From: Flavitalea plasmicola
GTDB lineage: Bacteria; Bacteroidota; Bacteroidia; Chitinophagales; Chitinophagaceae
Direction: 5' to 3'
Assembly: GCF_030546645.1 (NCBI RefSeq)
Contig: NZ_JAUOTO010000007.1
Span: 124,001-188,000, forward strand
DNA: 64,000 nt
Part shown: positions 12,751 through 37,791 of the stretch, one piece after another
Layout: each line of letters begins with the position of its first letter
How positions within the stretch are numbered: the stretch's first letter is position 1
Notes under the pieces: model-generated
Database searches by the model: none
What the model was told of the DNA's origin: nothing
Seen by the model: the letters and a program-made list of their open reading frames with translations, nothing else
Translations under genes and position numbers: made by a program

Positions 12751-14418
12751 TCAACGACTAACGCGCATCAGCTCAAACCATTCCAGGCTGTGCTCCCGCG
12801 TGCGGTGATCCAGGAACGCCCCCGAAAGCTGGCTTACATGAAAGTTGGGGAACCGCTGCAGCCTGTCAACATGATATCCCTCACGTAAAAGAGTATCTGA
12901 AAATGCCGGCCTGGCGAAGAAAAGCGCCTGCCCCCCGGCCAACAGGGCGGGCAGGCTGTCCAGCGGCATCCGCCGGACGGGACAGGGTGCGTAAAATTCG
13001 ATGGAATAATTTTCCGGCGCCTTTTCCGGCATGTAGAGGATATTACAGGAAGGGAGCTGATGCCGCAGATAGTCCCCCGCAACCATGCCAGCCTGGTAGC
13101 GCAGCATCGTCGGGTACAGGCAACAATTAATGAACAGGAAGGCCAGCAGCGCCATCCAGTAGCTGCGCCCCACAGCCGACGTCAGTGGATTGCCCCGGAA
13201 CCAATAGAAAGGAAAGATCGACAGCCCCGAAAAAACCAGCAGAACATATAGCCATCCGTAAAAATGGAACAGCCAGCAAAGCAAAAACACCATGGCAGGC
13301 AATAGGAAAACGATGGCCCCCTGGACCACGGTAATGACCCGGACAGCGACCCGGCGCCGGATACGATAAAGGTAGGATGCCGTCAATATCGCAAAAAAGG
13401 GAAAGAGAATATTCAGATAGTGCGGCAGCTGGAAACGGGAAAGCGAGAACATACCAAAGCTGATGAGGGCGCCGGCCAGGAACATCCGATCGCCCGAAAC
13501 AGCTCGGCGGGTGAAGCCCCGGAACACGGAAGCATACAACAACAATGACCAGGGCAGAAAAGCCCAGAGCAATGTATGAAAATAGAAAAAAGGATCTCCG
13601 TTGCCCTTGATAGGACCTGTATTAAAAAATCGTCCGAATTGACTGTCCCAGAAGAAAAAACGAATGCCGGACACGCCCGTTCGGCCAAACACCTGCTTCT
13701 CCGGGTGCAGATCGAACTGGACATAAAGACAATATAATTCCGGAAGGATGAAAACACCCGTCAGCAGCAGCGCGATCCACCAGCGGACGTTGCGGAACTG
13801 CGCCCAATCTTTACTTATTATCCAGTCCAGGACTAAGCCACCACCAATGGTCACCAATACAAACGGGCCCTTGGTCATCATGGCGCAGGCTGTCAGCAAG
13901 CTCCCGGCGACCAGGTGCCAACCCGGCCTCACCCTGGAGGCCTTATAGAAATGATAGACAGCGCCGATCACCAGCGCCGTGAGGTAAGGCTCTGCCCTTA
14001 CGTCATTGTTGGAGATCACCAGGTGCGCCGCCGAGACATACAGGAGCACGGACAGCTGCGCAACGGCCCTTCCATAGTTATCCTTTGCCAGACGATAAAC
14101 ATATCCCCCTCCCGCAGCCCAGAACAGCAGGGCCGGTAATTTATAAGCAAAGCTGTTGATACCGAAAATGCGAAAGCTGATGGCCGCCAGCCAGAAAGGG
14201 AAATGGGGTTTGTCCAGCCAGTCCCTTCCTTCGACACGGAGATGTATGAAGTCGCCTGTTTCGGCAATGGTGCGGGCGATCATCGCATACAGCGCGCCAT
14301 CGGGTTCTATGATGCGTATGAACAACCCACTGGCATTGACAAGTATGCCAGGCGCCAATAGCAGGAGAAACCATTTGTTCAGCCACGCTTCCCAGGGGGA
14401 GCTATTTGGATCGATCAT
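12751..14418 (-). CDS. GT39-type integral-membrane glycosyltransferase (ArnT-like)
   Basis: A 555-residue polytopic protein of the dolichyl-phosphate-mannose/ArnT glycosyltransferase superfamily, which moves a sugar from a polyprenyl-phosphate donor onto lipid or protein at the periplasmic face. The first periplasmic loop has the family signature (EPDGALYAMIARTIAETGDF, then GRDWLDKPHFPFWLAA). About 11 hydrophobic helices follow and a C-terminal periplasmic domain begins near residue 440. The ATG at 14418 overlaps the stop codon of the upstream PAP2 gene in a TGATG arrangement, so the two are translationally coupled. With a PAP2 phosphatase beside it, a role in polyprenyl-phosphate-linked envelope modification is plausible. 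The sugar and acceptor are unknown. Confidence 0.87.
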   Translation of the reverse strand: MIDPNSSPWEAWLNKWFLLLLAPGILVNASGLFIRIIEPDGALYAMIARTIAETGDFIHLRVEGRDWLDKPHFPFWLAAISFRIFGINSFAYKLPALLFWAAGGGYVYRLAKDNYGRAVAQLSVLLYVSAAHLVISNNDVRAEPYLTALVIGAVYHFYKASRVRPGWHLVAGSLLTACAMMTKGPFVLVTIGGGLVLDWIISKDWAQFRNVRWWIALLLTGVFILPELYCLYVQFDLHPEKQVFGRTGVSGIRFFFWDSQFGRFFNTGPIKGNGDPFFYFHTLLWAFLPWSLLLYASVFRGFTRRAVSGDRMFLAGALISFGMFSLSRFQLPHYLNILFPFFAILTASYLYRIRRRVAVRVITVVQGAIVFLLPAMVFLLCWLFHFYGWLYVLLVFSGLSIFPFYWFRGNPLTSAVGRSYWMALLAFLFINCCLYPTMLRYQAGMVAGDYLRHQLPSCNILYMPEKAPENYSIEFYAPCPVRRMPLDSLPALLAGGQALFFARPAFSDTLLREGYHVDRLQRFPNFHVSQLSGAFLDHRTREHSLEWFELMRVSR

Positions 14419-15140
14419 CAATTTGTGTTGCCGGCTTCTTTTTTAAACCATCCGATAAAGTTATACCGTCCCTCACTATTTCTGGCCCACACGTAGTTGA
14501 AGATACGGGATATACCAACGCCGGTAAGCCACCCGGTGCCGGCCCCTGCCAGCGTATCGAAAGGATAATGCTTACCTACATAGATCTGGGCATAGCAAAC
14601 TGCTGCCGCCCAGACATAAAGGCCCCACCATTTCTTCCCACCCGTTAATGTCCGGAAGACGGGTTTTCTGAAAAATTTACCCCGTCTTCCGGAAAGATCT
14701 AATGACTGTCCTTCGGACAACGAACCTCCGGTTCGTTCAATAGTACGTACGGCAAAATACCAGAAAGCAGCCAGGCCAAAATGATTGGCGGCATGCGAAG
14801 AAGGCATGGAATAAAGGCCCCCGCAATCCCCCAGTATCCTGATCGTCTGCGCCATATCAGGATCGTGACAGGGACGGAGCCGTTCGAAAAAAGGTTTCAT
14901 CACCTGGGCCGTAAGACTGTCCGTAATAGCAAAGGTCAATAAGCTCAGCAGGATGAAAGGCAATGCCTGCTGCCGGACATACCGCAGGGAATAATACAGC
15001 ATGAAGACATAGAAGGGTATCCAGGTATACGGATCACGCAGGATCGGCGCCACCCGGTCCAGCACCGCATGATCCGAGTCATGCTGGATCAGCGTGAATA
15101 AAATTTTATCGATATGATCCAGCCATTCAGGGAAGTTCAT
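14418..15140 (-). CDS. PAP2 family phosphatase with an internal palindrome-derived insertion
   Basis: A 240-residue membrane phosphatase of the PAP2 (lipid phosphatase/undecaprenyl-diphosphatase-like) superfamily. The three signature blocks are present: KPFFERLRP, MPSSHAANHFGLA and QIYVGKHYPFDTLAGA, carrying the catalytic Arg and two His. Between blocks 2 and 3, after FWYFAVRTIE, lie about 33 extra residues (RTGGSLSEGQSLDLSGRRGK onward to VFRTLTGG) encoded by a cluster of palindromes at 14651-14738; without them the protein would be near the usual 200-210 residues. The insertion keeps the frame and both flanking motifs. First gene of a two-gene unit with the GT39 gene. Confidence 0.9.
   Translation of the reverse strand: MNFPEWLDHIDKILFTLIQHDSDHAVLDRVAPILRDPYTWIPFYVFMLYYSLRYVRQQALPFILLSLLTFAITDSLTAQVMKPFFERLRPCHDPDMAQTIRILGDCGGLYSMPSSHAANHFGLAAFWYFAVRTIERTGGSLSEGQSLDLSGRRGKFFRKPVFRTLTGGKKWWGLYVWAAAVCYAQIYVGKHYPFDTLAGAGTGWLTGVGISRIFNYVWARNSEGRYNFIGWFKKEAGNTN
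14651..14738. repeat. Palindrome cluster inserted in frame in the PAP2 gene
   Basis: Three inverted repeats lie side by side within coding sequence: a perfect 13-bp pair TCCGGAAGACGGG / CCCGTCTTCCGGA (14651-14663 and 14681-14693, 17-nt loop), TGTCC-TTC-GGACA (14707-14719) and AACGAACC-TCC-GGTTCGTT (14719-14737). The last 20-mer, AACGAACCTCCGGTTCGTTC, recurs exactly in the intergenic region at 37772-37791, which argues that this is a dispersed repeat and not ordinary protein-coding sequence. Confidence 0.75.
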
Positions 15141-30420: not shown

Positions 30421-30888
30421 TTTAGTATAAAGGTCAGATTTTTGAAATTTCAGCTATTAGTGCACCCTTGCAGTACCAGTACTTCGTCGGAGCTGCTTCG
30501 ACACGCTCCTCCTCGTCCGTACCCTTCGGTTACCCTCGGGTACCACTTGGACAGCAAAATTGAAGGAAATAATTTGAATTACAAAGGTGAAACCCTTGAT
30601 TCATCGGATTATTTTCCACAAAGCTTTAACTGCCAAATTTTTTTTTGAAGGCCGTCTTCAAAGGGTATAACTCACTGTACAGAACGAAAAAAGTTAGAGT
30701 TGCGTATGTGATGGGCAATGTGCCCGCAAAGATTTTTTCGAATGCAGTCCCTCTCTTGTTTTCGGAAAGGACAAGTCCTTCCGAAAACGATCTCATAATT
30801 GGGAACTTCGCCGGCCCTTCGGCCCTCGGCCCGTCTCGTTCATAACCTTCGCTACGCTTAGTTACAGCCGCCGAGCCTGTGGCTCGTC
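30421..30888. other. Gene-free region with palindromic repeats, mreB-kynA
   Basis: There is no credible gene in these 468 bases. They contain segments of the short-palindrome family: ACTTCGTCGGAGCTGC at 30481-30496, which matches 14 of 16 bases at 37688, GTACCC/GGGTAC (30519-30543) and CGAGCC-TGT-GGCTCG (30872-30886). A larger hairpin is at 30758-30788. The mreB promoter should also be here. Short open frames on the plus strand have no recognisable protein character. Confidence 0.6.
30758..30788. repeat. Long inverted repeat in mreB upstream region
   Basis: GTTTTCGGAAAGGAC (30758-30772) and GTCCTTCCGAAAAC (30775-30788) pair with one bulged A and a 2-nt gap. It could be a terminator for the upstream side or part of the palindrome-cluster repeat family. 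Confidence 0.65.
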
Positions 30889-31962
30889 CTAGCGCGCAAA
30901 CCCCAACCTCTTTTCCATTTCAGCATCCAGTTGCGGCAATCGCTTCCTTTCAATGAGAAAGCTCGTGAGCCCTGCAACGTCTTTGAACAAATGATGCTTC
31001 ATTAACGCCGCGCTCAGGTAATCCTTACCCGTGCTGCCTCCCGTGCCGATGCGCGTACCAATGATCCGGTGTACCATGCTCATATGCCGGTAACGCCAGG
31101 TGCTCAGCTGCTCATCGATCTCCAGCAGCTGATGCAGGACCTGGAAAGGCAGCTGCAGGATGGGATATCCCCGGTAAAGCATGATGAAAAGCGCAGCGCG
31201 GCTCGCAGCAGGAGAAAGCGAGCGACTTTCCGCAAAAGTCCTTTCAGCGAATGGTCCCTCCGGTGAGGGAGCACCGAAGAAGATCCTGTCGAAGAGGTCA
31301 AGGTTGGACTTTTCCCGCTCTGCCAAAGATTCCAGGTAGCGCTGCCTGTAATTCGCCCAGAAAGCAATCCCATGATCCTGCGGTGGAATAACGCCCCCGG
31401 GTATGGGCCCATCCGCAGGCAGGCGGAAGAAAGGCATCCGCTCCAGCCAGGTATTGACCAGTTCAAGAAGAGAAGGGGCGTTTTCGGCCGCTTTGATGGT
31501 ATCTATCTCGGGCTGGCGAAGCTGGGAGACATAATACTGCTGTCCGTACCGATGCTCGTATTTAAGCCCCAGGCGGGCTTCCAACAGCTTAAACTGCCAG
31601 CTCTGGAAGCCGGAGGCAGGACGGAGCATATCCCGGAAGTCCAGGAAATCCATGGGCGTCATGGTCTCCATGATATCGATCTGGTGAACCAGCACTTTCA
31701 GAATGGTTCCGCAACGGCCAAGCCGGTGCACGACGGTTTGCAGCTCCGGAGCGTTGTCATTCAGGGAAGGTTGCTGCATGATGTCGATGACCGAACCGGT
31801 CTCGAACAACAGTTGCTTGAACCAAAGTTCATAGGCCTGATGAATGACGATGAAGAGCATCTCATCATGGGCAGGCTCCCCACGCAGCACGCTCTCCGGA
31901 GATTGTGCGTTCAGGATCTGGTTCAGCTGCAGGTAATCGTTGTAATGGACTTCATTAGACAT
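30889..31962 (-). CDS. kynA: Tryptophan 2,3-dioxygenase
   Basis: A 357-residue haem enzyme that opens the indole ring of tryptophan to N-formylkynurenine, the first step of the kynurenine pathway. The ATG at 31962 (MSNEVHYNDYLQLNQILNAQ) was preferred over a TTG six codons upstream. Conserved parts are HDEMLFIVIHQAYELWFKQL with the substrate-site His, SGFQSWQFKLLEARLGL, and the C-terminal RYRHMSMVHRIIGTRIGTGG with the haem-ligand His and TGGSTGKDYL. The gene follows purD by 27 bp on the same strand; no other kynurenine gene is adjacent. Confidence 0.95.
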   Translation of the reverse strand: MSNEVHYNDYLQLNQILNAQSPESVLRGEPAHDEMLFIVIHQAYELWFKQLLFETGSVIDIMQQPSLNDNAPELQTVVHRLGRCGTILKVLVHQIDIMETMTPMDFLDFRDMLRPASGFQSWQFKLLEARLGLKYEHRYGQQYYVSQLRQPEIDTIKAAENAPSLLELVNTWLERMPFFRLPADGPIPGGVIPPQDHGIAFWANYRQRYLESLAEREKSNLDLFDRIFFGAPSPEGPFAERTFAESRSLSPAASRAALFIMLYRGYPILQLPFQVLHQLLEIDEQLSTWRYRHMSMVHRIIGTRIGTGGSTGKDYLSAALMKHHLFKDVAGLTSFLIERKRLPQLDAEMEKRLGFAR

Positions 31963-37534: not shown

Positions 37535-37687
37535 AGTACTTGCATAAAGGTCCACTATAGACAACGCCCGCCGGAGACCCGTTGCACCCAAAAATATCCG
37601 GTCAACGCTTTTTTCAAAAATTTAACGCGTTGCCCGGAATCATCTAATATCTGAGACCTTCGGAGGAGTTCCGGGCCCTCACTCAGA

Positions 37688-37791
37688 ACTTCGTCAAAGC
37701 TGCGTTCCTCGCTTTTTCCTCGTTCGTACCTTTCGTTCCTCAGGTACGGTCGTAACCTTGCGGTTATAGGCAACGAACCTCCGGTTCGTTC
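37688..37791. repeat. Intergenic short-palindrome cluster
   Basis: The segment carries ACTTCGTCAAAGCTGC (37688-37703, 14 of 16 shared with 30481), a TAACC-TTGC-GGTTA hairpin (37753-37766) and AACGAACCTCCGGTTCGTTC (37772-37791), which is identical to 14719-14738 inside the PAP2 gene. It ends 3 bp from the apaG stop codon. It appears to be a second member of the dispersed palindrome family. Confidence 0.7.

Follow-up and report, generated by a model that had tools for sequence, protein, structure and literature searches.

The window analysed here, a stretch of 64,000 nucleotides (G000:C17:124001-188000) from a source genome of 8.73 Mb in 19 contigs, contains a PAP2 phosphatase gene with a palindromic element inside its coding sequence, and an intergenic repeat cluster that shares the end of that element (Table 1). 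The gene product matches the PAP2 family (PF01569) with E 5.7e-16, and the element comprises three stem-loops and a single-stranded linker. The 95-nt unit has a predicted fold of -37.9 kcal/mol, compared to -22.4 +/- 2.9 for shuffled sequences (z -5.3, with 0/200 as stable). Stem-loop 3 is 19 bases long and occurs at 20 places in the genome with no more than one mismatch (the reversed control gave 0), and the terminal 20 bases of the element recur exactly at 37772-37791 and at no other place in the window with up to three mismatches (shuffles expect 0.00). The element termini are placed only within a few bases, and the window copy (14645-14740) is among the sequences used to build both of the covariance models, R1 and R2, described below.

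The first-pass annotation had described three inverted repeats, one of them a perfect 13-bp pair, within the PAP2 gene and an exact recurrence of the last 20 bases at 37772, and all of these are present, the cluster at 37591-37791 being a longer variant of the element. Its statement that the reading frame is kept also holds, although the unit is about 95 nt rather than 88 bp and the net addition to the protein is 32 residues, not 33. We note separately that the spacer at 30523-30900 contains pieces resembling the expanded stem-loop 2 of long variants (CGCTCCTCCTCG and AACCTTCGCTACGCTTAGTTAC), and that the model matches it only weakly, at 30754-30827 (E 0.063).

Table 1. Locations of the element, the genes that carry it in frame, and a candidate mobiliser. 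Positions are those of the window unless a genome or locus is named.
Feature	Location	Strand	Evidence
PAP2 phosphatase gene, 240 aa, element-bearing	14418..15140	-	ORF and Pfam PF01569
96-bp coding insertion, PAP2 residues 135-166 (ERTGGSLSEGQ...VFRTLT)	14643..14738	-	Homologue comparison
Full-length three-hairpin element copy, antisense inside the PAP2 gene	14645..14740	+	R1 109.6 bits; R2 105 bits, E 6.3e-26 in the window
Stem-loop 1: perfect 13-bp stem 14651-14663 / 14681-14693, 17-nt A-rich loop with AAAAATTTA	14651..14693	+	Double-sided changes in 13/13 pairs, 102 copies
Single-stranded conserved linker AAGATCTAATGACT	14694..14707	+	Alignment of 102 copies
Stem-loop 2, GTCC TTC GGAC; becomes a branched insert in long variants	14708..14718	+	Folding, covariation
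Stem-loop 3, AACGAACC TCC GGTTCGTT	14719..14737	+	Folding, covariation
Intergenic long variant of the element, stem-loop 3 at 37772-37791	37591..37791	+	R2 47.5 bits over the first 93 nt (37591-37683); exact 20-mer
GreA-like factor	G000		+90 bp; 3 homologues without insert; GreA_GreB below Pfam cut-off
ABC ATPase	G000		+90 bp vs G018, +87 bp vs G004; two others with a different short stretch there
GYF-like protein	G000		Truncated copy, variable linker; GYF_2 below Pfam cut-off
Histidine kinase, inside HATPase_c	G004		+96 bp; 2 homologues
POTRA protein	G004		About +93 bp; variable linker following signal peptide
DUF2480 protein	G004		+93 bp; 5 homologues
NnrU-like protein	G018		+93 bp; 1 homologue
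4HBT_2 thioesterase			Inside domain, 151 residues over 120 positions; Pfam only
CP_ATPgrasp, FGE-sulfatase, DUF2264, glycosyl hydrolase 3			In-frame copies; Pfam or position only
HlyD (L171), MFS (L114)			Copy ≤10 residues from predicted start, later start possible; Pfam or position only
Multihaem cytochrome			In-frame copy; weak Pfam matches
RAYT-like tandem pair	L078 733-2040 = G000:C16 about 211330-212574		Relatives in 14 other genomes (15/33 genus genomes)

The insertion in the PAP2 gene

As judged from sequence comparison, residues 135-166 are an insertion of a dispersed three-hairpin element. The segment is absent from all 19 PAP2 homologues captured in a protein alignment, 12 of which belong to the same subfamily and seven of which are more distant, one of the seven being a paralogue in the same genome (a motif filter left L063, L064, L068 and L070 outside this alignment). 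The PAP2 protein has matches in 17 of the 33 genus genomes searched, and in a DNA-level alignment the 96 bp between the Ile134 and Gly167 codons are missing in 7/7 homologous genes; in the nearest relative, G018, residues 1-134 and then 166-240 match and the DNA is contiguous. This outcome agrees with the earlier proposal of an absorbed element, and neither a segment present in all homologues nor a unit found nowhere else in the genome, the two outcomes named as refuting it, was encountered. Because one genome only has the segment, an ordinary indel, an ancestral segment lost elsewhere or an assembly artefact might be proposed, but the segment is a full copy of the element, it is missing in 19/19 captured homologues, and the same pattern is repeated in other genes and other genomes, and we give these explanations almost no credence.

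The insert is located between the PSSH and GKHYPFD motifs, which we take to be catalytic motifs of PAP2; both motifs and the reading frame are intact, and the domain is stretched to 154 residues over 127 Pfam positions. Of the genomes compared only one has the insertion, which looks young, and it might have damaged PAP2, such that the gene is decaying and its open frame is a matter of luck. However, the intact motifs and frame argue against decay, as does a dN/dS of 0.09-0.13 relative to the nearest relative, compared to 0.06-0.12 in a non-carrier pair (carrier flanks overall give 0.02-0.32 where dS is computable and non-carrier pairs 0.03-0.33, all values averaging in time preceding insertion). 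The lower identity of the C-terminal flank (74%, with 86% for the N-terminal flank) is mirrored in the non-carrier pair (70% vs 81%), and decay therefore seems unlikely.

The PAP2 copy has the second-best score in the genome, which suggests a young insertion. With a net length increase divisible by three and no stop codon in the frame that is read, the insertion has left the PAP2 frame intact. The likely explanation, in our view, is that a dispersed and mobile three-hairpin element entered PAP2 recently, with the frame maintained in this manner. The enzyme may well still be working with the peptide as a tolerated passenger; the proposal that the element has become protein sequence is best taken to mean that it was recently inserted and is probably tolerated, with neither a new function nor translation implied. 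A structure prediction for the protein was uninformative (pLDDT 36). A PAP2 homologue in G028 (L065) has another in-frame insert at a different site, of a dozen or more residues with GNAAGRHVAGG, and this insert does not match the three-hairpin element.

A family of covarying hairpins

The extent of the family was examined by searches of the source genome and its relatives, and several patterns emerge. First, the element is dispersed in its own genome, with 44 blast matches to the 95 bp at E≤10, eleven of which are near full length, and 52 places matching R1, a model built from 11 copies, at E≤0.001; the earlier view of a mobile or amplified element is in accord with this. Secondly, at E≤0.01 R1 gives at least 740 matches, spread over 15 of the 33 genus genomes, with up to 121 per genome among the best 128 candidates per genome, a few of the 740 being reverse-strand shadows of palindromes. 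The bearers are Bacteroidota genomes of 4.3-9.4 Mb, and at least two of the genomes compared are MAGs. Thirdly, in the wider family, for which 195 genomes from a larger group were searched under stricter filters, R1 matches are in four (G000, G030, G096 and G175), with G096 and G175 belonging to another genus. R2, a second model built from 102 copies in 11 genomes, has 38 matches in G096 and 25 in G175, as well as one marginal match each in G014 (E 0.0066), which belongs to the genus and has no R1 matches, and in G038 (E 9e-4).

The structure is strongly supported by covariation. Among the 102 copies, whose alignment is fitted to the model, double-sided changes that keep pairing are seen in 13/13 pairs of the first helix, 2/4 of the second and 8/8 of the third (23/25 in total); 95.0% of cells are paired, as against 74.3% in shuffled alignments and no more than 56.9% in slid structures, and the covariation score is 0.522, compared to 0.145 for shuffled versions (0/500 shuffles) and no more than 0.131 for slid ones. 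The arms themselves are diverse, with 79 different stem-loop 1 arms and 40 different stem-loop 3 arms, and stem-loop 2 has eight positions that are 95-98% conserved, one loop base at 89% and a variable pair at about 60%. Unpaired bases are also well conserved, with A33-A35, T38 and A39 of the loop and T65, A67 and T68 of the linker at 91-99% (within the linker TAAT, T65, A67 and T68 are at 94-99% and A66 at 75%). Of the 117 copies first extracted, a set that does not include the own-genome place C12:99950-100008 (E 1.1e-7), six are long variants of 142-154 nt and one is of 117 nt; in the three long variants folded, stem-loops 1 and 3 are kept and stem-loop 2 is expanded and branched. A first loop-pattern search of the genome gave no match. 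Two minimal, apparently internally deleted copies were also seen (G000:C16:126838-126861 and C13:544993-545011; L042 and L048), in which a 5′ end like AATGTCC/TGTCC is joined straight to GGACAACGAACCTCCGGT... without stem-loop 1 and the linker.

Strong covariation together with conserved unpaired bases could reflect a structured RNA, such as a regulator, terminator or processing site, selected in spacers, with genic copies as accidents of spread. Consistent with this, 89 of 117 copies lie between crudely called ORFs, with median distances of 14 bp to gene 3′ ends and 22 bp to 5′ ends. The substitution pattern, however, points elsewhere: pair-keeping changes include 460 two-sided and 15 one-sided (G-T type) cells, and G-T pairs occupy 19 of 2523 cells, a rarity that speaks for a hairpin in DNA more than for a working RNA, since G-U pairs would be expected to be commoner in a structure transcribed and acting at the RNA level. 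By the same crude ORF calls, moreover, copies are more numerous in divergent than in convergent spacers (25 vs 11) and, between tandem gene pairs, in antisense than in sense (35 vs 18), and a search with six loci found no Rfam family at E≤1. An RNA role for the family is thus improbable, and we favour a DNA hairpin, or the copying of one arm from the other by hairpin templating. An excess of A-C mismatches (48) over G-T pairs (19), which hints at folding of the other strand, was set aside, with 18 non-standard cells falling in one pair. A structure that covaries strongly with hardly any G-T pairs may help to separate DNA-level from RNA-level selection.

In-frame copies in other genes

Genes carrying the element were sought among 157 copies in eight genomes (52 in G000, 45 in G018, 20 each in G004 and G096, 11 in G001, four in G028, three in G021 and two in G003), which are mostly the best-scoring copies per genome and not a random draw. 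Sixteen of these are in frame in recognisable genes (7/52 in G000, 5/45 in G018, 3/20 in G004, 1/11 in G001 and 0/29 in the other genomes, with 0/20 in G096 as judged by eye); the gene screens detect in-frame copies only, and the observation that the frame is always kept is partly one of ascertainment. For eight of the 16 there are homologues that lack the insert; the other eight have the support of Pfam or position only. Seven genes in addition to PAP2, in three genomes, therefore carry a copy that is missing in homologues, and these genes are unrelated to one another (Table 1). The POTRA and GYF cases, which involve variable linkers, are the weakest of the eight. The insert in the ABC ATPase is situated between the Walker A and Q-loop motifs, stretching the ABC_tran match to 167 residues over 129 positions, and that in the histidine kinase stretches HATPase_c to 141 residues over 110. 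In six of the eight cases resting on Pfam or position the element precedes the domain, near the N-terminus. By R1 score the copies in PAP2, the GreA-like gene and the ABC gene come 2nd, 5th and 6th in their genome, and to judge by these scores they would be young. The ORFs through L183 and L186 are open but have no Pfam family and were left uncounted, and in MsrA (L109), a TPR lipoprotein (L160), ExoIII (L157) and others the start may follow the element, placing them outside the 16.

The element is open in several of its reading frames. Among 91 full-length copies with clear anchors, S2 is open in 55, A0 in 47, A2 in 44, S0 in 16, A1 in 12 and S1 in four, where base shuffling gives an expectation of 18% per frame. 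All eight homologue-backed carriers use S2 or A0. So do 13 of the 15 cases classed (P 0.017), and with two doubtful ones included the count becomes 14 of 17 (P 0.029), relative to a crude frame-openness expectation of 57%; the glycosyl hydrolase 3 case is outside this classing. The preference for S2 and A0 given their openness is only a hint, and they are not the sole frames used, with A1 and A2 cases appearing at a lower length cut-off. Copies are depleted in ORFs, with 27 of 117 inside crudely called ORFs compared to 444 of 519 random positions at the same loci, and most genic insertions have presumably been lost.

The favouring of two of the six frames by the classed in-frame copies could be taken as a sign that the encoded peptide has been recruited for function, as a domesticated new protein segment. 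The expectation is crude, however, the tested insertions are each private to one genome, the conservation of the peptide is no higher than that of the element itself, and the A1 and A2 frames are also used; we regard recruitment as very unlikely.

Candidate mobilisers and relationship to known elements

Two conserved kinds account for most of the Y1_Tnp genes in the bearers. In the first, a pair of RAYT-like genes stands in tandem next to a gene for a UvrD-type helicase (at four loci, by eye). The first protein of the pair has no Pfam family and no HxH by eye, and the second is present at E≤1.2e-70 in 15/15 element-bearing genus genomes; of the 18 non-bearers, four have weaker relatives (5e-31 to 2.5e-11) and 14 have none at 1e-8. 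The second protein retains HxH, and in the 14 of 15 bearers aligned (L308 of G031, L315, L316 and L317 being outside the alignment) the tyrosine of Y-I-H-x-N-P, presumably catalytic, is replaced by His (12), Glu (1) or Ser (1). For E. coli TnpAREP, Y115F is named as the catalytic mutant (PMC8266576). The pair is not a proven mobiliser, as it marks the bearers within the genus and fails to do so outside: G096 and G175, of the other genus, have elements and no RAYT-like pair, and G034, G035 and G037, with its closest outside relatives, have no elements. Common descent could explain the co-occurrence. Among 31 Y1_Tnp loci one element match reaches E<0.01 and adjoins an IS200-type gene of G003, and two weak ones have E 0.07 and 0.97; no element was seen near the RAYT-like pair in the loci examined, including five more RAYT-like loci.

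The second kind is a small IS200-TnpA-like gene (L077 1422-1902; G000:C14 about 780500-781000) that occupies a fixed place in 13 genus genomes, flanked by apparent chorismate mutase and aroB (3-dehydroquinate synthase) genes, one on each side, by eye, as if domesticated. As a candidate mobiliser it was rejected, being found in 11/15 bearers and also in the non-bearers G024 and G032, with one element-like match adjoining (L228). Terminal inverted repeats were not found in 104 copies (the best mean 10-nt identity is 0.386), and direct repeats of at least 4 flank 26 of the 104, compared to 17.9 in permutations, with the termini approximate.

Insertion of palindromes in frame is a known phenomenon, encountered here with a different element in Bacteroidota. 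Rickettsia palindromic elements (RPEs) are described as 100-150 bp repeats of Rickettsia and Wolbachia (PMC3767692) that lie in frame inside unrelated ORFs and add a protein segment (PMC3767692, PMC10969869), and those of R. conorii are stated to end in CGTC (PMC3733652). The likeness that the first-pass annotation drew to them holds for behaviour, in that dispersed palindromes lie in frame in unrelated genes, eight here, whose homologues are without the insert. The present element differs in being about 95 nt long with three hairpins and conserved unpaired bases, and in occurring in Bacteroidota, the comparison being with published descriptions of RPEs. The terminal tags also differ: CGTC is in the first 12 nt of three and the last 12 nt of nine of 104 copies, and GTAG is within 12 nt of an end in 0/104.

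REPs, with their GTAG and CGTC families, are moved by RAYT transposases. They are likewise reported as high-copy hairpins that are mostly intergenic yet are also known from ORFs of several species, O. terrae and R. conorii among them, with frequent G-T pairing used as an argument, and one sentence of the same text mentions CGTC repeats in Bacteroidetes (PMC3733652). The element resembles REPs in copy number and in its mostly intergenic placement with some copies in ORFs; a RAYT-like pair is present in 15/15 genus bearers but does not mark the bearers outside the genus. It departs from them in the lack of a GTAG tag, in having three hairpins in about 95 nt rather than a 20-40 bp palindrome, in a RAYT-like pair that is unflanked by elements at the loci examined and whose presumed tyrosine is replaced, and in the rarity of G-T. 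MITEs, on record in another Bacteroidota species, P. gingivalis (PMC5771137), are similarly small, dispersed and presumably non-autonomous, but the present element shows neither terminal inverted repeats nor a clear target duplication. The element is therefore RPE-like in its behaviour, and the results do not support placing it in the tagged REP/RPE families. An earlier report of this family in the Bacteroidota group was not found in the openly licensed literature. The original observation is confirmed and its interpretation supported, save for a place in those tagged families.

We propose that the element may move as folded single-stranded DNA, like the hairpin substrates of HUH/Y1 enzymes, without clear target duplication, and that it would land in genes and spacers alike. 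Selection would then purge genic copies unless the roughly 31 added residues fall at tolerant sites of the protein, and because three of the six frames are open more often than chance, some genic insertions could survive as translated inserts. A more speculative reading, which we find conceivable but doubtful, is that the family represents a new class of mobile structured nucleic acid that spreads copy-paste by an undescribed route and is a recurrent source of segments of about 31 residues outside Rickettsia. The mobile form would be a single strand that has three hairpins and a conserved core of unpaired bases, its favoured open frames supplying ready-made segments, and the route might involve a domesticated RAYT pair without the usual tyrosine together with another nuclease.

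High-frequency in-frame insertion of palindromes has been described for Rickettsia, and a 2024 review treats a similar route of protein evolution in other prokaryotes as only conceivable (PMC10969869); REPs inside ORFs of several species had been reported in 2013 (PMC3733652). With at least eight homologue-backed cases in large Bacteroidota genomes, the idea that selfish hairpins feed protein evolution becomes testable in a new system.
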